A stretch of 64,000 nucleotides of DNA from Chloroflexota bacterium (GTDB lineage: Bacteria; Chloroflexota; Anaerolineae; Anaerolineales; UBA4823): NCBI GenBank assembly GCA_029265355.1, contig JAJUJL010000001.1, positions 372,001 to 436,000 of the forward strand, given 5' to 3'. Shown here piece after piece: positions 4,864 through 14,675 of the stretch (within the stretch, counting starts at the first letter, position 1; each line of letters opens with the position of its first letter). Made by a program: the position numbers and the translations under genes. The notes beneath the pieces are model-generated. The model was given only the letters and a program-made list of their open reading frames with translations, was not told the origin of the DNA and made no database searches.

Positions 4864-5244
4864 TTACACAGAGATCGGAGCGTCGCCAGGCTTCCAGTCG
4901 ACGTTCGTCTTATCCGATTCGTCATACGGCGACTTGGCGAAGATCGCTTTCCACGGGACCTCGCCTTTGTTGATCAGGTAGTGCGGCGTGCGCGGGGGAA
5001 CATGGCATAGGTCGCCTACGTGCAGCTCCAGTACGCCATCAGGCGTGTGCAACTCGACGCTGCCTTCCAGGGTGTAAAAATTTTCTTCGATCGCAGAGTG
5101 GTAGTGAGTTTGGAAGTCTTCTCCGGGCATCAAAACCACCAATCCGAAATCGGAGCGCGGCCCGCGCAGCAGGTACTTAGGGCCAGAGATATTGTTAAAT
5201 CGGTATTTGACTTCGTTCTCGTTAATCTTGAACAATTTCATCAT
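4864..5244 (-). CDS. Small cupin protein at the end of the lsr operon
   Basis: A single-domain cupin of about 126 residues. Motif 1 is PGEDFQTHYHSAIEENFYTLEG (two His and Glu as metal ligands, about residues 43-64) and motif 2 is VGDLCHVPPRTPHYL, with a further His. Start: ATG at 5244 (or the next ATG at 5241), preceded by TAGGAG at 5249-5254, which overlaps the lsrK stop codon; the GTG at 5259 has no ribosome site. It is the last gene of the AI-2 operon and translationally linked to lsrK. Its substrate is unknown. Because LsrG, the enzyme that normally acts on phospho-AI-2 before LsrF, is missing here, a role as sugar-phosphate isomerase is conceivable but is only inference. Confidence 0.82.
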   Translation of the reverse strand: MMKLFKINENEVKYRFNNISGPKYLLRGPRSDFGLVVLMPGEDFQTHYHSAIEENFYTLEGSVELHTPDGVLELHVGDLCHVPPRTPHYLINKGEVPWKAIFAKSPYDESDKTNVDWKPGDAPISV

Positions 5245-5251
5245 TGAGCTC

Positions 5252-6808
5252 CTATTCACCCGGAGCGCGCCACAGGGAGTGCGTGATGCCCTGGTCCGCC
5301 AGGGAGAGTTGCGGCGGGTACGCTGCCAGCCAGTGGGCGTAAAGGTCTTCGTAAACCGCCTGGTTCTTCACATCTGGCTCATAGACTTTTTCGCTTTTCA
5401 CGAGCTCACTGGCGGCCGACTCGAAATCTTTGTACCAGCCAATGCCCACACCCGCGCACATCGCTCCGCCGAGCGCGGTAGCCTCTTTGACCACCCGGGT
5501 GTGCACAGGCACCTGCAACACGTCAGCCAGGATCTGGCACCACAGCGGGCCTTTGGATGCGCCGCTGGCAAAAATGACGTATTCAGGATACTCACCGGTC
5601 ACCTGCTGGATGCGCAGAAGATTGGCGCGCGTGACCACAGCCGCATTTTCTTGCAACGCCCTGAACATCGCTGGTCGTGAGCAGGCTTGCGGATCGAGGC
5701 TCAGATTCAGGAAGGATGGCGCAGCGTGGCGCCAGTGGCTGTAATCCATGGCATCTGAGAAAATCGGCAGGATGCCATGCGAGCCAGCGGGGACGTCGCG
5801 AGCCATGTCTTCCAGCACGGCGTAGGGATCCTGTCCGCTTGCCAAAGCCTGGGCTTTGATGTCCGGGCAGATAGCATCGCGGAACCAGCGCACAGCCATC
5901 CCCGGGAAAAACACAATCGTTTCGGCTTGCCACAGACCAGGCACGGCGTGGAAGTCCATGCGGATGCGACCGGTCGGGTCAGATAGAGGACGATCTAAAT
6001 TGACTTCCTGCTGCCAGAACGTGCCGCCAAATACCGCCGCTTGCCCAGCACGAACGGCGCCCACGCCGATTGTGCCGAGCTGTGCATCTCGACCTCCCAT
6101 CACAATGGGCGTCCCAGCCCGCAAGCCGGTCTCGAGCGCTGCCTGGGGCGAGACTTCTCCGATCAGGTCGCCGCCCTCGTGTACTGGCGTGCTCAATATC
6201 TGGCTGCGGAAACCGCAGGCATGCGCCAACTCGAGGTCCAGCTTGCGGGTAGCCAGGTTGAACAGGCCAGCAGTACCTCCGTTGGAGGGATCGATCACCA
6301 CGGGCGCGCCCAGGCGGTGCGATACCCAGTCGCTCAACATACCCACCTTCGCCGCTTGTTCGTAGATCTCAGGTGCATGGTCTTTGAGCCACAGGATGCG
6401 CGGCGCAGCACCCAGGGCAAAAGTTTGCCCTGTGCGCAAGTATAATCGGTGCTCTAAATCGGGATCTCGCTGGCGCAGCGCCTTCACCTGTTCGATAGCA
6501 CGGGCATCAACGTTGGCGCAAGCCCACAGCTCGCGGTCATTGGCATCGTACAGCACAAAGCCCTCGCCCATGCTCGTGGCGCTGACTGCGGCCACGTGAG
6601 CATCCGGCACCTGACGCAGGACTTCGCGGATGCAATTAACAAGCAAGCGCCAGTTAGCTTCGCGGTCAAAGTTCATCGAGCCAGGCACACCAGGCTCAGC
6701 GGGATGTGTCCACTCACGGCCGGCAGCGGCGAGCTGCCTGCCCTGCTCATCAAACAGAACCGCCCGTCCGCTACCGGTGCCCGCATCCAAAGCCAGTAGA
6801 TGTTTCAT
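5252..6808 (-). CDS. lsrK: Autoinducer-2 kinase LsrK
   Basis: FGGY-family kinase that phosphorylates internalised AI-2 (linear DPD) at C5, trapping it in the cytoplasm and making the LsrR inducer. At 518 residues it is close to E. coli LsrK (530) and carries stretches recalled as shared with it: LALDAGTGS at the N-terminus, VPGSM, WACANVDARA, SDW, DPSN, GGTFWQQ, MRWFRDA-like VRWFRDA, APSFLNLS and the terminal TSLWKAPG-like HSLWRAPGE. The nucleotide-binding site shows GASKGPLWCQILADV and KEATALG. Start ATG 6808 has AAGGAG 5 nt upstream. It follows lsrB after an 86-nt gap with a strong hairpin. Confidence 0.95.
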   Translation of the reverse strand: MKHLLALDAGTGSGRAVLFDEQGRQLAAAGREWTHPAEPGVPGSMNFDREANWRLLVNCIREVLRQVPDAHVAAVSATSMGEGFVLYDANDRELWACANVDARAIEQVKALRQRDPDLEHRLYLRTGQTFALGAAPRILWLKDHAPEIYEQAAKVGMLSDWVSHRLGAPVVIDPSNGGTAGLFNLATRKLDLELAHACGFRSQILSTPVHEGGDLIGEVSPQAALETGLRAGTPIVMGGRDAQLGTIGVGAVRAGQAAVFGGTFWQQEVNLDRPLSDPTGRIRMDFHAVPGLWQAETIVFFPGMAVRWFRDAICPDIKAQALASGQDPYAVLEDMARDVPAGSHGILPIFSDAMDYSHWRHAAPSFLNLSLDPQACSRPAMFRALQENAAVVTRANLLRIQQVTGEYPEYVIFASGASKGPLWCQILADVLQVPVHTRVVKEATALGGAMCAGVGIGWYKDFESAASELVKSEKVYEPDVKNQAVYEDLYAHWLAAYPPQLSLADQGITHSLWRAPGE

Positions 6809-6894: not shown

Positions 6895-7974
6895 TTAGAA
6901 ATCGTAGTTGTCGATATTGTCGATGGTGAAGATCACACGCTCAGGCAGCAGGATGATGCCGTTATTCTCGGCTTCGTAGGTGTAGCCCTGCACGCTGTTG
7001 GGCGAAACCTCCACCGTACCGATACCCGGCACTTCGATTTTATCACCGACCTTGAAGGTCTTACCCATCACCAGCTCGTTCGCCATAAACACGGCAAGCT
7101 TACCCTGGATCACCACATCCCACAAACCAAACTGCTTCACCGTGCCGCTCTTGACATACTGGCGCATGACGTTTGGCGTTGAAAAGCCAACAATGATCAC
7201 TTTGCCAGAAATGCCCAAATTTTCAGCCGCCTGTGCGGTGCCGGGCAGAGCGTTGGCATCGGGGCAAATGATCGCATCCAGATCTGGGTAGGTCTGGAAG
7301 ATATCGGTAGGCACCTGAACGGCTTTTTGAGCGTCTTCACCCGAGAACTGCGTGGTGACGATTTCCCAGTTGGGATACTCCTCCGCGATGATTTTCTTGG
7401 CGACCTCTACCCACTGGTTCTGGTCGGTCACGGTGGGGCTGGAGTAGTGGAAAGCCACTTTCTTGGGACCTTCTTTGCCACCGTTGGGCATCTGGCTGGC
7501 AGCCATCTCCACCAGCATGCGTCCGAGCTGATCGGGTGTGCCCTGGTTGATGTAATACGAGCGGCATTCCGGGTTGACATCGGAGTCCCAGGTGAGCACC
7601 TTAACGCCTTTTTCCATAGCGCGCTTAAGCGATTCGCACAGGCCATCGGGCGAGAGAGACGAGATGGCAATGGCGTGGTAGCCCTGGTTGACGAAGTTGT
7701 TGATGTACTGGATCTGATCGCTTACACTGGGTTTCTGCGAGCCATCGTACTTCACGTTGATGCCCAGTTGCTTACCCATCTCCACCGCACCTTTACCGCC
7801 GGACTCGAAAAAGCCAACACCCGTGAGTTTGGGGATGAAGGCGATTTTAACGTCTTTGGGCTCAGGCACCTTTGCCGTATTGCTGGAAGCCCCACCTGAG
7901 CAGGCCGTCAACAACATGGCAGAGACGACGAGCAAGAAAAACAGACTGGTTGCAGAAGAACGAATGCCTTTCAT
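6895..7974 (-). CDS. lsrB: AI-2-binding lipoprotein LsrB
   Basis: Periplasmic-binding-protein-type receptor of the AI-2 importer. It begins with a lipoprotein signal (LLTAC, Cys25), so it is membrane-anchored, as expected where there is no periplasm. Long stretches agree with Salmonella/E. coli LsrB, e.g. [38 protein letters not shown] and LLPERVIF. The six residues known to contact AI-2 in Salmonella LsrB (K35, D116, D166, Q167, P220, A222) map to K50, D131, D185, Q186, P239 and A241, all conserved. Start ATG 7974 has GGAGG 8 nt upstream. At 359 residues it has normal length plus the anchor. Confidence 0.97.
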
Positions 7975-8056: not shown

Positions 8057-9085
8057 TTACCTATTGATCGGTGATACGCCTCCTTTCGATTCTTCGCTAG
8101 CGCGTAGCGCCTTGCGATTCACGCGCGTTTGATTGAGCGCAGCACTGCCCAGTTTGGATGCCACGATGATGACCAACATGCTCCCAATGACCACCTGCGA
8201 TACATCATTCGTCACGCCTATTGCCAGAAGACCCTGCTTGAGAAATCCAACCACAAGGCTGGCAATCAGCGTGCCCGGGATGGTACCCGAGCCGCCCAGG
8301 TTGCTTGTGCCGCCCAATACTACCGCCGTGATGATCGGTAACAGCGCCTCACCACCCAGGTCGGAGCGAGCCGAAGTAAAGTAGGAGGTGAGCATCACGC
8401 CAGCCAACGCCGCACCAAACCCGCTAAGAGCATACGCGCCAATAATCACCCGCTGCACCGGTATGCCGCTGAAGCGGGCCGCTCGCAAATTCACGCCGAT
8501 CAGGTACAGCGAGCGGCCAAAGCGCGTACGGGTCAGGGTTATGTGTAAGATCAACGCAAACGCCAGTACGATCAGCAGTGGATAGGGTACTATGCCGATC
8601 GAGCCGTGCGAGATGTTATTGAAGCTGGTGGGCAGGCCGGAAATGCCCTCGTAGCTTTCCGCCCCTTGCATCCCAGCAATTCCGGTTGCCAGACCGGAGT
8701 ATAGGAACAAGGTGCCAAGCGTAATTACCAGTGGTTGGATATCGGAGTAAGCGACCAGCACGCCGTTGAACATGCCTGCCAGAACGCCAACCAACAACGC
8801 CAGCCCCATAGCCACGAATACATTGATACCAGACAGCCAGGACACGCCCAGCACCACCGACGACAGGCCCATCATCGAGGCGACTGAAATATCGATGCCG
8901 CCGGTGATCATCACCAGGGTGAGCGGCAACGCAGCCAGCATGATATGGGTGAAGTCATTGGTGGAATAAAACAGATTATCCAGGTTCAGGAACGAAGGCG
9001 TGATAGCGCCAAACAGCAGCACCTCAGCGATCAGCAAACCCACCAGCGCCGATTCCCAGTTTCGGAAAAGTTTGAGGATTTTCAC
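8057..9085 (-). CDS. lsrD: AI-2 importer permease LsrD
   Basis: Membrane permease of the sugar-type ABC family (BPD_transp_2), one half of the AI-2 channel. It matches LsrD rather than LsrC: ESALVGLLIAEVLLFGAI, the GGIDIS loop, VITLGTLFLYSG, YEGI, SYFTSARSDLG and AVVLGG. Start: GTG at 9085, which overlaps the lsrC stop in GTGA and has GGAGG 5 nt upstream; an ATG at 9202 lies inside lsrC and is unlikely. That gives 342 residues against 330 in E. coli. Eight or more hydrophobic segments are visible. There is an 82-nt gap to lsrB. Confidence 0.95.
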   Translation of the reverse strand: MKILKLFRNWESALVGLLIAEVLLFGAITPSFLNLDNLFYSTNDFTHIMLAALPLTLVMITGGIDISVASMMGLSSVVLGVSWLSGINVFVAMGLALLVGVLAGMFNGVLVAYSDIQPLVITLGTLFLYSGLATGIAGMQGAESYEGISGLPTSFNNISHGSIGIVPYPLLIVLAFALILHITLTRTRFGRSLYLIGVNLRAARFSGIPVQRVIIGAYALSGFGAALAGVMLTSYFTSARSDLGGEALLPIITAVVLGGTSNLGGSGTIPGTLIASLVVGFLKQGLLAIGVTNDVSQVVIGSMLVIIVASKLGSAALNQTRVNRKALRASEESKGGVSPINR

Positions 9086-10107
9086 AAGGCCTCCTTCGAT
9101 GCCGCATCGATCGCCACTTGCACACTTCGGTGCAAGCGCATCTGGGCGCGTGCCCTTCGCTGGCGCTGGTCCAAAGCCACCCGGATGCGGTAGTCGACCC
9201 ATAGCACCACCAGGAGAATTCCACCGGCTATAGCGTTGTTCCAGAATGCGGGCACCTTCAGGTAAATCAAGACGCTGTCTATAACAGTCAAGAATACGCC
9301 GCCCACCAACGCAGAGAAGGGCGTACCGACGCCGCCGGCCAGGTTGATTCCACCCAAAACACCGGCAGCGATGGCGCGCATCTCCAGGCCATCACCGGTG
9401 GACATGGGTACAAAACCGATCTGGGCGACAAAGATCACCGAAGCCAGCCCGGCAAATAACCCAGCCAGGCTATAGGCGGTGAAGTGCGTCAGACGCACCG
9501 GAATGCCCATCAAGTAGGCGCCATTTTCATTGTCTCCAACCGCATAAAAATAGCGCGCCGTGCGCACTTGCTTCAACAAAATATAGACCATCACCGTCAG
9601 CGCAAGCGTGAACCAGGCAAACATTGAAACACCCAGCAACTTTGCGCCTGCCATAGACTTAATCGACTGCGGGATGGTTTCAATCCATGAACCCTCGGTG
9701 ATAATCAGCATGAGGCCGCGGAAAGCGCCCAAAGAGCCGAGCGTCATGATAATTGGCGGCACTCGCAGAAAGGTCACGCCTGCGCCATTGATCATCCCAG
9801 CCAATAATCCGGTGAGAAGCGCCAGCAGGATCGCCAGCGGCAACGATACACCCGCGTTCAGCGCGGTCCCTAAAATCACTGCGCTAATACCGGTGATAGC
9901 ACCCACCGAGACATCGATGCCGCGCGTCAAGATGACAAACATCTCACCAATAGCAATCAGGATGAGTATCAGGCTGCTATCGAGCATGTTTTTCAGCGAG
10001 GCTGGTTGCAAAAAAGCAGGATTGATCGCCCCGATGACCGCCATCATCCCAAGCAAGATGAACAATACCAACAATTCACGGTTACGTAGAATACGATTCC
10101 AGTTCAT
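9082..10107 (-). CDS. lsrC: AI-2 importer permease LsrC
   Basis: Second permease of the AI-2 channel. It follows E. coli LsrC along its length: LTRGIDVSVGAITG, a WIE..P segment, the YAVGDNENGA loop, AQIGFVP, GLEMRAIAAGVLGGI, and TVIDSVLIYLKVPAFWNN near the end. At 341 residues it matches the family. Start ATG 10107 lies in an ATGA overlap with the upstream lsrR-lsrA fusion gene and has GGAG upstream, so fusion, lsrC and lsrD are translationally chained. The C-terminal tail is long and basic (RQRRARAQMRLHR), as in LsrC. Confidence 0.96.
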   Translation of the reverse strand: MNWNRILRNRELLVLFILLGMMAVIGAINPAFLQPASLKNMLDSSLILILIAIGEMFVILTRGIDVSVGAITGISAVILGTALNAGVSLPLAILLALLTGLLAGMINGAGVTFLRVPPIIMTLGSLGAFRGLMLIITEGSWIETIPQSIKSMAGAKLLGVSMFAWFTLALTVMVYILLKQVRTARYFYAVGDNENGAYLMGIPVRLTHFTAYSLAGLFAGLASVIFVAQIGFVPMSTGDGLEMRAIAAGVLGGINLAGGVGTPFSALVGGVFLTVIDSVLIYLKVPAFWNNAIAGGILLVVLWVDYRIRVALDQRQRRARAQMRLHRSVQVAIDAASKEAL

Positions 10108-12587
10108 ACACCACTCCGCACACCAAACGCTGAGGCTGTAATCCGTTCGATCTGGCATTGGGCGCGCGGCAGCTCTTCTACGATCTGACCGTGATACATC
10201 ACCAACACGCGATCGCTGAGCTGGATGACCTCTTCCAGGTCAGAGGAGATCAGCAGAATGCCCACCCCTTGTTCGGTTAGCTTACGGATCAGGTGATAGA
10301 CATCCTGCCGTGCTTTGGCGTCAACGCCGCGCGTGGGCTCATCTAAAATCACAACCTTAGGGTCGCCTGCCAGGCACTTGGAGAGCACTACTTTTTGTTG
10401 GTTGCCGCCGGAGAGCGTACGGGCTTGCTGCGATAGGCTGTTGATTTTGATACGCAACTGGTCAACAAAGCGGGCGCCTATCCTGGCTTCTTCGCTCTGA
10501 GAAAGTAGAACCTTCCCTAGCCGGGGCAGGATGGAAGCAGTGGTGGTGTACAGGTTGGGCAGCTCCAGGAAAATCCCGTGAGCATGGCGGTCTTCAGGAA
10601 GGTACACCAGCCCCAGCTCAGCACAGCGCCGTGGGCTGCGGCGATCAGCAACCTGACCTGCGATCATCACCGTACCACGCGCCGCGTGCTCCAAACCCAG
10701 AATGGCATGCGCTAGCTCAGTGCGGCCCGCTCCAACCACACCAGCCAACCCCACGACTTCTCCAGCCCTCACACTCAGGTTCAGGTTTTGAAAGGCGTCT
10801 CCGCTCAGGCCTGAAATCTCCAGCACCACCTCACCAAAAATCGCCGAGGGATGCTCATGCCCAGTTTCGCCGTTGTTGCTGCTCGTTTCGGGCAGCATGG
10901 CGCGAATCAGATCGCGTGAGGTGAGCGTGCTGGTAGGTGCAGACAACACCAGGTTACCGTCGCGCAAGACGCTGATCCTCTCGGAAAGCGTCAAAATCTC
11001 GTTCAGACGGTGAGAGATAAAGAATATGCCAATGCCCTTCTCAGCCAGCTTGCGGATAATCGCGAACAACGAATCAACTTCGCGGAAAGTCAAGGTAGAG
11101 GTGGGCTCGTCAAAGATCAAGACCCTTGCATTGCGCAGCAACCCGCGGATGATCTCCAAAAGTTGCTGGTTAGCGATGCTCAGCATACCAGCTTCAGCGC
11201 TTAAGTCGCCTTCAAAGCCCAGATCACGCGCCAGCTCGACAATTCGCGAGCGCGCCTCTTGCTGCTGCAAGCCTGCACCCAGCAGAATGTTTTCTTCGAC
11301 CGTCAGATGAGGGAATATCTGAGGTTCCTGGGGCACCAGGTAAATTCCCATGGCATGCGCATCCGATGGCCCATGGATGGCGATTGGCGAGCCGTTCATT
11401 TCGACTGAGCCAGCTTCAGCAGTGTAAACGCCGGACAGAATCTTCATCAATGTGGATTTGCCGGACCCATTGCCCCCCAGCAGGGCATGGATCTCACCGG
11501 GCAGCAAATTCAGGTTCACACCGCGCAACACAGGCACACCGTCAAAGACCTTCCAGATGCCGCGCATGGCGATCAAGGGGGGCGGCGTGGCTTGAGTCTT
11601 AATCTCAGAAGAAGACACCTGAGTGAGGCCGGTGGTGTGCAGCGCCAGGACGGCTCGGGCCGCCGCTTCATCGGTCACCAGCACATTGACATAACCCTTC
11701 CTTAATGCAGCCAATATCGATCGGGCTTTCTCAGCGCCGCCAGCCACCCCCATCACGGTAGGTATACGTGACAACGTGTCCAGGGTAATACCGATGACTC
11801 GTCGATTGATGGGCAGGTCAAGCCACTCACCCTGAGCATTGTAGTGCTGTGCACAGATATCCCCAACTGCGCCGGACAGGCGGATCTGCTCAGCTTCTGC
11901 TGGCGATACGTAACCGGTGCGGAGCAGGCTGTACAGTTCCGGGTGTGTTGAGCCGATGCCCACCAGGGCGATGCTGAGTTTGGAGGCTCGCGCCAGGGTA
12001 TCGCGGATGGTGCGCTCCTGCAGCAGGGCGTTGCGCCCGGTTTCCGATTCAACAATCAAGGGAGCGTGCAAAAAGCGCACGCCGCAGTTCAAGCGGTTAG
12101 CCAACAGGCGGGCCAAGATTGGGCCATCCGTGGCTACCGGTTCATTGCCAGTAGCGCCGATGAGTTGCACCACTTCCACGTCGGGCAGGTTCATCGGTGG
12201 CATTGCCATGATCATCTGGTACAAAGCGCTGCCCCATGAGATGCCGATGCTGTCCTGCGCGCCCAGCACCTCAGAGAGGTAATCCGCTGCCAGATGCCCG
12301 ATTCCTTCGAGCATTTGCTCAGAGGAGGTCGCCTCAGCAGATAGCACGCGCACTTGTTTGAGGTGAAAAGTCTCCTTGAGCTCCGCTTCCAACTCGGGGT
12401 TGGTCTGCCAGGGACGGTTAATCGTTACCTGGACCACGCCCATTGACCGGGCGCGCTCAAGAAGCTGTTTCACTTCTGCCTCGGAGAGGCCGCGCTGCGA
12501 CGCAATGTCTTGTACGGAGTTGGCGCGATGATAATAATCCGAAGCAATCTCCGCCAGAAAAGCTCGTTGATCATGGTTTTCCGCCAT
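10104..12587 (-). CDS. LsrR-LsrA fusion: AI-2-phosphate sensor joined to the AI-2 importer ATPase
   Basis: An 827-residue protein in one uninterrupted frame. Residues 1-315 are an entire SorC/LsrR-type regulator: a winged helix-turn-helix (about 10-58) and a sugar-phosphate effector domain (about 62-315, with GISWGSAL, QLIGATG, HAPLIVE, GIGST, GVAGG). A linker (316-338) leads to a complete LsrA double ATPase. ATPase 1: Walker A GGNGSGKST 371-379, degenerate signature LSIANQQ from 469, Walker B FDEP 492-495. ATPase 2: the degenerate Walker A usual in sugar importers (GVVGAGRTE), LSGGNQQK 725-732, LDEP 748-751. The start ATG has GGAG 5 nt upstream; no ribosome site precedes the Met at 341, so a separate LsrA product looks unlikely. 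The sensor half aligns gaplessly with the stand-alone LsrR at about half identity, but its recognition helix (35-44) has Glu, Ala and Gln where LsrR has Arg and Ser, so DNA binding may be lost. Role inferred: an importer ATPase gated by phospho-AI-2. Confidence 0.93.
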   Translation of the reverse strand: MAENHDQRAFLAEIASDYYHRANSVQDIASQRGLSEAEVKQLLERARSMGVVQVTINRPWQTNPELEAELKETFHLKQVRVLSAEATSSEQMLEGIGHLAADYLSEVLGAQDSIGISWGSALYQMIMAMPPMNLPDVEVVQLIGATGNEPVATDGPILARLLANRLNCGVRFLHAPLIVESETGRNALLQERTIRDTLARASKLSIALVGIGSTHPELYSLLRTGYVSPAEAEQIRLSGAVGDICAQHYNAQGEWLDLPINRRVIGITLDTLSRIPTVMGVAGGAEKARSILAALRKGYVNVLVTDEAAARAVLALHTTGLTQVSSSEIKTQATPPPLIAMRGIWKVFDGVPVLRGVNLNLLPGEIHALLGGNGSGKSTLMKILSGVYTAEAGSVEMNGSPIAIHGPSDAHAMGIYLVPQEPQIFPHLTVEENILLGAGLQQQEARSRIVELARDLGFEGDLSAEAGMLSIANQQLLEIIRGLLRNARVLIFDEPTSTLTFREVDSLFAIIRKLAEKGIGIFFISHRLNEILTLSERISVLRDGNLVLSAPTSTLTSRDLIRAMLPETSSNNGETGHEHPSAIFGEVVLEISGLSGDAFQNLNLSVRAGEVVGLAGVVGAGRTELAHAILGLEHAARGTVMIAGQVADRRSPRRCAELGLVYLPEDRHAHGIFLELPNLYTTTASILPRLGKVLLSQSEEARIGARFVDQLRIKINSLSQQARTLSGGNQQKVVLSKCLAGDPKVVILDEPTRGVDAKARQDVYHLIRKLTEQGVGILLISSDLEEVIQLSDRVLVMYHGQIVEELPRAQCQIERITASAFGVRSGV

Positions 12588-12626: not shown

Positions 12627-13493
12627 TTAATGAACCGAGCTAATGGCCACATCCTCAGCCGTAGCGACGTAGAGCTCTTCGCGGCGAGTGCTGTCGTTTT
12701 GCAACCCTTCAACCAGCTCTAAGGCCTGGTCAACCGAAGCCTTTTCATGGACGATGGCGCGCACTCCCTGGAGAATCGCGGCAGGGTAGTCTGATTGCCA
12801 GATATTGCGACCCATATCAACACCAATCGCACCGGCCTGGATCGAACGATAGGTCAGCTCCAATACATCGCGATAGGTGGCTAACTTGGGTCCACCCGCG
12901 ACCACAATGGGCACAGGCGTCTTTGCCACCACCTCTTCAAATCCATCACAGTAATAGGTCTTCACGATATCTGCGCCAAATTCGGCGGCGATACGCGAGG
13001 CCAGCGCCAAATAGCGCTTCTCGACCTTTTCTTTCATCTTCTTACCTACTGCAGTCACCCCCAACACCGGAAGATTGTACTGAGCAGCATCATTGATGGC
13101 AGTCGAAAGGTTTAGCAAAGTCTGGTGCTGATGCTCGGCGCCGATGTAAATGGATACCGCTATTGCTGAGGCGTTCAAACGGATCGCTTCAGCCGCTGTC
13201 AGGATCAAGGATTCGTTGTCGATGTCGGGATCCAGCACGGTATTGCCGCCCGAAGCACGCAGCACCCATCCCACCCCACCAAGCGTGGCCGGTACAGAGG
13301 TGGTCAGGATCCCTGGCGAAAGCATGAGTGAGTCGATATACGGCAGCAGCGGCCGGATTGCCCGAGCGGGGATTTCCATGCCGTGCGTTGGACCCATGAA
13401 ATACCCATGGTCAATCGCTAGCATAACCGTATGCCCGTCTGATTTGATGATTTGATGAAGTCGATTTTGTTTACCCCAGCTCATTATTGCCAT
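12627..13493 (-). CDS. lsrF: 3-hydroxy-5-phosphonooxypentane-2,4-dione thiolase LsrF
   Basis: Class I aldolase-fold enzyme that cleaves the phospho-AI-2 derivative P-HPD with CoA to acetyl-CoA and dihydroxyacetone phosphate, ending the signal. The family pattern is clear: TVMLAIDHGYFMGPT, VLRASG, YIGAEHQHQ, the Schiff-base lysine in IVKTYY (Lys178), VPIVVAGG and GVDMGRNIWQSD. Start ATG 13493 has GGAAGGA 6 nt upstream; the in-frame ATG further up lacks a site. It gives 288 residues (E. coli 291). Here lsrF is the first gene of the operon, unlike E. coli, where it follows lsrB. Confidence 0.95.
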   Translation of the reverse strand: MAIMSWGKQNRLHQIIKSDGHTVMLAIDHGYFMGPTHGMEIPARAIRPLLPYIDSLMLSPGILTTSVPATLGGVGWVLRASGGNTVLDPDIDNESLILTAAEAIRLNASAIAVSIYIGAEHQHQTLLNLSTAINDAAQYNLPVLGVTAVGKKMKEKVEKRYLALASRIAAEFGADIVKTYYCDGFEEVVAKTPVPIVVAGGPKLATYRDVLELTYRSIQAGAIGVDMGRNIWQSDYPAAILQGVRAIVHEKASVDQALELVEGLQNDSTRREELYVATAEDVAISSVH

Positions 13494-13530: not shown

Positions 13531-13633
13531 GCACATTTGTGAGTTATACATCACATATGTGATCATTTTAGCATACCATTTCACGAATGTCAAGAATTTA
13601 TTCACATAATTGAAATTTAATTCACATATGTGA
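13531..13633. promoter_or_regulatory. Array of five TCACATATGTGA-like operators
   Basis: Two perfect palindromes, TCACATATGTGA at 13551-13562 and 13622-13633, and three variants, GCACATTTGTGA (13531-13542), TCACGAATGTCA (13581-13592) and TCACATAATTGA (13602-13613). Start-to-start distances are 20, 30, 21 and 20 nt, so most sites face the same side of the helix. They overlap both divergent promoters and are the probable LsrR binding sites. Confidence 0.85.
13565..13593 (-). promoter_or_regulatory. Promoter of the leftward lsr operon
   Basis: On the minus strand, TTGACA (13588-13593), a 17-nt spacer and TAAAAT (13565-13570): an almost ideal housekeeping promoter. One operator covers the -35 and another lies just downstream of the -10, placing the operon under direct repression. 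The leader to lsrF is about 65 nt. Confidence 0.85.
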
Positions 13634-13639
13634 TATAAT
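13610..13639 (+). promoter_or_regulatory. Promoter of lsrR
   Basis: TTGAAA (13610-13615), an 18-nt spacer and TATAAT (13634-13639). The perfect operator at 13622-13633 fills the spacer, which indicates autorepression of lsrR. Confidence 0.8.
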
Positions 13640-13712: not shown

Positions 13713-14675
13713 ATGGCGAACGAAAGTTCTCGCTTAGATCACCTGGCCTACGTTGCTTCGTTGTATTACGAGCAGGACAAGAACCAACAAGAGATTGCCG
13801 ATGAACTGGGCATCACTCGCTCGGCTGTATCGCGCTTGCTTACTGAAGCGCGCGCTCGCGGTGTGGTTGAAATCATCGTGCACATGCAATGGCGTACCTC
13901 CACAGAGCTTGAAAATGAAATCAAGGAGCGCTTTGGATTGCGAGCAGCGCGCGTGTTGATTCGAGAACAAAAATCGCACGAGATGATGCTACGCGGTCTG
14001 GGGGAGCTGGGCGCCGATTTCTTCACCAGCGTGTTGAAACCCAACGATATTGTTGGCATATCTTGGGGTACCGCCCTGCACCAAATGGTCAATAGTCTGT
14101 CTCCGGGCAAGCACCATGCCGCTGAAGTTGTGCAATTGATTGGGGGCACAGGCACCGAGCAAGCCTCAGCAGATGGTCCACTCCTGGCGCCATTGCTGGC
14201 CAATAGTCTGGGATGCATCTGCCGCTACCTGCACGCGCCGCTCATCGTAGAAAACGAAGCCACGGTCCAGGCCTTGATGAGCGAGCGTATGATCCGCGAG
14301 ACGCTGGAGCACGGCCAGCAAGCCAACATCGCTTTGGTGGGCATTGGCTCTACCGCCTCAGATCTATACAACCCTTTGCGCCTGGGATATGTCAAGCCAG
14401 ATGAGCTGCATGAATTGCAGAAGGCTGGGGCTGTAGGATTAGTATGCTCGCGTCATTACGACATCTACGGACGCCTGGTGAATATTCCAATCAACCAGCG
14501 CGTAGTTGGCATCAGCCTGGCAGATTTATCACTCATTCCTTACGTGATCGGTATTGCCGGCGGCGTGCGCAAGGCTGAAGCCATCTTGGGGGCCCTGAGA
14601 GGTCATTACATCAATGTGCTGATCACAGACGATACAGCCGCCCGCCGCTTGCTTGAGATGGCGCAATTGCGCTAA
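13713..14675 (+). CDS. lsrR: LsrR, AI-2-responsive transcriptional repressor (SorC family)
   Basis: Cytoplasmic regulator that represses lsr genes and is released by phospho-AI-2. The N-terminal helix-turn-helix (about 12-58) has an intact recognition helix TRSAVSRLL (35-43). The effector domain (about 62-315) carries GISWGTALHQM, QLIGGTGTE, YLHAPLIVE, GIGST and GIAGG. At 320 residues it compares with 317 for E. coli LsrR. Start: ATG 13713 with AGAGGGG just upstream; the ATG at 13692 would add seven residues without a site. It is divergent from the lsr operon, sharing a 219-nt control region with five operators. It is a close paralogue of the N-terminal half of the fusion protein. Confidence 0.94.
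   Translation: MANESSRLDHLAYVASLYYEQDKNQQEIADELGITRSAVSRLLTEARARGVVEIIVHMQWRTSTELENEIKERFGLRAARVLIREQKSHEMMLRGLGELGADFFTSVLKPNDIVGISWGTALHQMVNSLSPGKHHAAEVVQLIGGTGTEQASADGPLLAPLLANSLGCICRYLHAPLIVENEATVQALMSERMIRETLEHGQQANIALVGIGSTASDLYNPLRLGYVKPDELHELQKAGAVGLVCSRHYDIYGRLVNIPINQRVVGISLADLSLIPYVIGIAGGVRKAEAILGALRGHYINVLITDDTAARRLLEMAQLR

Follow-up and report, generated by a model that had tools for sequence, protein, structure and literature searches.

Repeated 12-bp palindromes lie in the 219-bp gap (32% GC) between the divergent lsrR gene and lsr operon of a Chloroflexota bacterium, and they raise the question of which protein reads them and in what unit. Computation gave the sites and showed them to be unique in the genome, arranged in pairs, placed at predicted promoters and conserved beside LsrR; the stretch of DNA analysed, referred to below as the window, is 64,000 nucleotides long. 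It is very probable that LsrR, the AI-2 repressor, docks at these TCACATATGTGA repeats in two places, one on each of two back-to-back promoters.

The lsr locus and its palindromic sites

The regulator gene stands on one side of the gap and a seven-gene operon on the other, with the operon genes given here in their order on the minus strand:

13713..14675, plus strand: lsrR, SorC/DeoR-subfamily repressor, recognition helix ITRSAVSR intact, ribosome-binding site AAAGAGGGG
12627..13493, minus strand: lsrF, first gene of the operon, NCBIfam PRK08227 above the curated cut-off
10104..12587, minus strand: SorC effector domain fused to the LsrA ATPase, N-terminal HTH degenerate
9082-10158, minus strand: lsrC
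8057-9202, minus strand: lsrD
6895-7974, minus strand: lsrB
5252-6808, minus strand: lsrK
4864-5259, minus strand: cupin gene, closing the operon

The AI-2 pathway homologues lsrF, lsrA, lsrC, lsrD, lsrB and lsrK are thereby placed downstream of an operator predicted to control them, and identity to E. coli LsrA, B, C, D, F and K is 43-64%; the LsrA, LsrC and LsrD models are the best-matching ones for their proteins, yet these matches fall below the curated cut-offs. The cupin gene (4864-5259) stands at the operon end, in the position of lsrG in E. coli; seven related loci also have it, and it may stand in for the LsrG isomerase.

The original prediction placed five operator sites in this gap, and all five 12-mers were confirmed at 13531, 13551, 13581, 13602 and 13622, as were their start-to-start spacings of 20, 30, 21 and 20 nt and their description as two perfect palindromes with three variants (2, 0, 3, 2 and 0 mismatches from 13531 to 13622). 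The two perfect sites, 13551 and 13622, read TCACATATGTGA with 0 mismatches each, and these are the only exact copies in the 5,051,516-base genome; 13531 (GCACATTTGTGA) and 13602 (TCACATAATTGA) have 2 mismatches each. A weight matrix built from 17 operators at nine other loci, with the window left out, ranks 13551 and 13622 both first, 13531 third and 13602 fourth among the 64,000 window positions, so that a matrix taken from the lsr loci of other species finds four sites far above chance. The sites and predicted promoters of the gap are as follows:

13531..13562, unstranded: Operator A (operon operator), GCACATTTGTGA-N8-TCACATATGTGA, palindromes 20 bp apart
13565..13593, minus strand: predicted lsrF operon promoter TTGACA-17-TAAAAT, a promoter type that recurs beside the operator in relatives
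13581..13592, unstranded: doubtful fifth site TCACGAATGTCA, 3 mismatches, overlapping the operon promoter -35
13602..13633, unstranded: Operator B (lsrR operator), TCACATAATTGA-N8-TCACATATGTGA, palindromes 20 bp apart
13610..13639, plus strand: predicted lsrR promoter TTGAAA-18-TATAAT, extended -10 TGATATAAT

The fifth site behaves differently: 13581 ranks 13th in the window, among the background, the remainder of the gap would contain a site with 3 mismatches by chance with a probability of 0.11, and the right half of 13581 is complementary to the operon -35 TTGACA. It was therefore dropped, and with it the reading of five equal sites. In the related G042 promoter, TTGACATTCG is kept and the palindrome of the 13581 site is not preserved, and the -35 box offers the best explanation of the site. 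Because four sites rank at the top while 13581 ranks 13th and overlaps the -35, the array is, as far as its sequence goes, better read as two bipartite operators of two palindromes each, the unit being a palindrome pair 19-20 bp apart and not, as first proposed, one of five equal sites.

Spacing, placement and distribution of the paired operators

The half-operators are about two helical turns apart, at 20 bp in the window and 19 bp in ten related regions. In leave-one-out scans, where the best pair at any spacing between 12 and 60 was compared with 200 dinucleotide shuffles, a spacing of 19 was best in all nine regions (L077 to L085), and the same was seen in L101, which had no part in matrix training; in these nine regions and L101 every best pair exceeds the 200 shuffles. 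A relative labelled Thermaceae (L039) has a weak pair, with a score of 15.3 vs a shuffle maximum of 13.3. Although the training sites were collected at 19 bp, the matrix scores palindromes one at a time and the spacing result is therefore not built in; a few weak partner sites were, however, selected for their spacing and may have a slight influence on the matrix. Within the pairs the inner half-sites are better kept than the outer ones (means of 5.1 vs 4.35 of 6, p ~0.01), a difference not expected from a simple model of one palindrome per dimer; it hints at a contact pattern that is not simply one equal dimer per palindrome.

Both operators fall on predicted promoters, and the earlier claim that the sites cover the operon -35 and initiation region and the spacer of the lsrR promoter was correct for these. 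With start sites set 7 nt after the -10 box, so that absolute positions may be a few bases off, operator A spans about -4 to +28 relative to the start predicted for the lsrF operon, and in eight relatives the operon operator lies between -4 and +31. Operator B overlies the -35 and the spacer of the lsrR promoter, at -44 to -13 of the predicted start, whereas in six relatives the lsrR-side operator is found between +1 and +43; either position would block RNA polymerase.

A scan for the motif, which had been suggested as a check, places the exact palindrome and the full pair in this genome at the lsr gap only, and in relatives paired sites stand upstream of lsr transport and processing genes, 19 bp apart in ten regions. 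With up to 3 mismatches allowed, a search of the whole genome finds the paired operator at 13531-13562 and 13602-13633 alone (0 for the reversed control pattern), and a wider LsrR regulon in this genome was rejected on this ground; a looser 19-bp pattern with one mismatch has four other matches. Across 396 genomes of the class, the strict pair pattern was met at nine places in seven genomes vs one for the reversed control. Matches in G429, G076 and G360 are within ~0.5 kb of lsrA, lsrF or an LsrR-type gene and two in G047 are 6-7 kb from an LsrR-type gene, while on the fragments with the other four places no LsrR homologue is present; similar sites may therefore be read by related SorC regulators or by others.

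In G042, lsrR (L077 7424-8392) is found at the 3' end of the operon and is not divergent, and two paired sites still stand upstream of lsrF. In G002, TCACAAATGTGT-N8-TCACGTATGTGA (L107 5550-5585, 20 bp apart) is seen just upstream of a more distant SorC gene that adjoins apparent pyruvate dehydrogenase genes, a similar operator code for another SorC protein.

The original prediction also had most of the sites on one face of the DNA in a helically phased array. The first part holds loosely, as site angles at 10.5 bp per turn are 0, -34, -86, -86 and -120 degrees and thus spread from 0 to -120 degrees; the phasing of the whole array was rejected, since at nine loci only the within-pair spacing is conserved. 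The centre distances between operators at these loci are 71, 75, 83, 177, 183, 194, 251, 378 and 384 bp. These values share no helical phase (Rayleigh p ~0.55 at 10.5 bp per turn) and so lend no support to an obligatory loop. A looped or wrapped complex, in which tetramers at A and B (and perhaps at 13581) join and enclose the operon promoter, would suit compact layouts such as the 71 bp between A and B here and the 83 bp in G031, and G042 has the same flanking layout (+1 to +31; about -75 to -45) though its lsrR is not divergent. Distances that range from 71 to 384 bp in no common phase, and a middle site at chance level, make such a complex unlikely; the compact layout in the window and G042 leaves room for looping or wrapping but does not call for either.

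Candidate binding proteins

Two separate LsrR operators are the preferred reading, and LsrR is the nearest candidate to bind them. The best PDB match of LsrR is DeoR 8r7y (E 5e-54), and this SorC/DeoR-subfamily regulator with its HTH (13713-14675) adjoins the sites and keeps the contact arginines, LsrR R36 and R41 aligning with DeoR R34 and R39, two residues in contact with bases in the crystal structure of DeoR bound to DNA (PMC11229326). The SorC effector domain is present in the genome in LsrR and the LsrA fusion only, and the HTH is intact in LsrR alone.

It is very improbable that a CRP/FNR-family regulator reads TGTGA-Nx-TCACA between the palindromes. In its favour, the half-sites here agree with TGTGA, the half-site of CRP, and conservation is higher in the inner ones; however, CRP sites have the form TGTGA-N6-TCACA, with a gap of N6, and the gap is N8 in the window and N7 in relatives. 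No copy of TGTGA-N6-TCACA was found in the region, where the N8 form alone occurs, and this parse was rejected for its wrong spacing; across species, moreover, the sites go with LsrR and lsr genes.

Fusions of a SorC effector domain to LsrA are found in five genomes (G000, G042, G032, G076 and G414), with the HTH decayed or deleted. The suggestion that an HTH-like N-terminus lets the fusion bind the operators in competition with LsrR draws on the alignment that this stretch still gives to the LsrR HTH in four of the five, but the recognition helix of the fusion has lost both arginines equivalent to the DeoR DNA contacts. Among the five fusions the DeoR R34 position is changed or missing in all and the R39 position in four, and the G414 fusion is without an HTH altogether. 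As the contact arginines are lost, and in one species the whole HTH, binding of operator DNA by the fusion is unlikely on its sequence, and competition with LsrR has a very slim probability indeed. Relatives with an unfused LsrA carry the same operators, so the fusion is not needed for the operator architecture. The fusion suggests direct sensing of phospho-AI-2 by the transporter ATPase.

That the repeats are chance or structural and serve no regulatory role is next to impossible, since, although AT-rich gaps such as this 32% GC region commonly hold short palindromes, two exact TCACATATGTGA copies in the 219-bp gap have a chance of ~3e-10, and spacing and promoter placement conserved in other genera already contradict it.

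A proposed LsrR switch and its relation to known systems

We consider it highly probable that the gap holds two LsrR operators, one per divergent promoter and each for one tetramer, with repression relieved by phospho-AI-2; that LsrR is the bound protein, that it represses and that phospho-AI-2 is its inducer is what we infer. To this extent the original prediction is supported, both in placing an LsrR operator region at the two divergent lsr promoters and in matching several sites to the tetramers of the SorC family. SorC-family repressors have been described as dimers of dimers, whose tetramers bind two half-operators, and DeoR is tetrameric, as is the LsrR of E. coli; the effector exerts its action where the effector domains meet, and in CggR it breaks the tetramer into dimers (PMC11229326). 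By analogy, a pair 19-20 bp apart fits one SorC-family tetramer per operator.

In the proposed switch, each palindrome would take one LsrR dimer, and two dimers would join via their effector domains into one tetramer per 32-bp operator. The tetramer on operator A would cover the start site and the first ~28 bp of the lsrF-lsrA(fusion)-lsrC-lsrD-lsrB-lsrK-cupin transcript, and that on operator B the -35 and spacer of the lsrR promoter, and thus both promoters would be off without signal, with lsrR autoregulated. Imported AI-2 would be phosphorylated by LsrK and then bound by the LsrR effector domain, and the bound phospho-AI-2 would loosen the tetramer and free both promoters, while LsrF would drain the signal. 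Relatives share the paired layout, so this would be an ordinary quorum-signal switch. LuxS was not detected in ten genomes (G000 and nine relatives) with the lsr system or its LsrR, and AI-2 from other producers is therefore the probable signal for the switch. It is a rather doubtful further idea that the effector domain of the fusion, a SorC tetramerising domain kept although DNA binding would have been lost, pairs with LsrR and keeps it off the operators in one transporter state; if true, this pairing would couple AI-2 transport directly to operator occupancy, as in MalK and MalT.

The closest parallel is the lsrR-lsrA intergenic region of E. coli, which likewise has a divergent lsrR and transport operon and a SorC/DeoR-subfamily repressor. 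As read here from its sequence, it has two 33-bp TGAACA-N21-TGTTCA elements, one per promoter (L087 3759 and 3927), whose dyads would be ~19 bp apart by our own comparison if ACA is placed at the DeoR distance from the dyad. The half-site is TGAACA in E. coli vs TTCACA here, E. coli shows the outer half-sites only, and the operon here, unlike that of E. coli, begins with lsrF and carries the effector-domain::LsrA fusion. The LsrR footprint motifs in two papers on avian E. coli are also unlike the TCACATATGTGA-type site.

Another example is the CggR operator of B. subtilis gapA, where two half-operators take one tetramer on one DNA side (PMC11229326), as proposed here, and where the half-sites repeat 20 bp apart, as in the window, by our own count on the operator printed in that paper; CggR differs in its DNA-binding domain and half-site and in the operator position, +32 to +77. 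The DeoR operator of B. subtilis dra-nupC-pdp is bound by a tetramer with the same type of DNA-binding domain, has ACA equally far from the dyad, and has a regulator gene that adjoins the operon, as in the window (PMC11229326), but its half-operators are ~22 bp apart, the right one is degenerate, and it is a single operator at -60 to -21. The TGAACA half-site of E. coli and B. subtilis DeoR is not the one used here, ACA alone being shared with TTCACA; the CggR half-site also differs, so TGAACA does not define the class.

These comparisons suggest that one tetramer operator per divergent promoter is a plan common to E. coli despite the changed half-site. An autoregulated LsrR switch is of a known kind, and for its clearly readable site code no earlier description in this bacterial group was found in the literature searched. 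The locus would thus provide an operator code for AI-2 regulation in Chloroflexota, in which two palindromes of the TCACATATGTGA type stand 19-20 bp apart and together span about -4 to +28, and the matrix is usable for finding LsrR targets.
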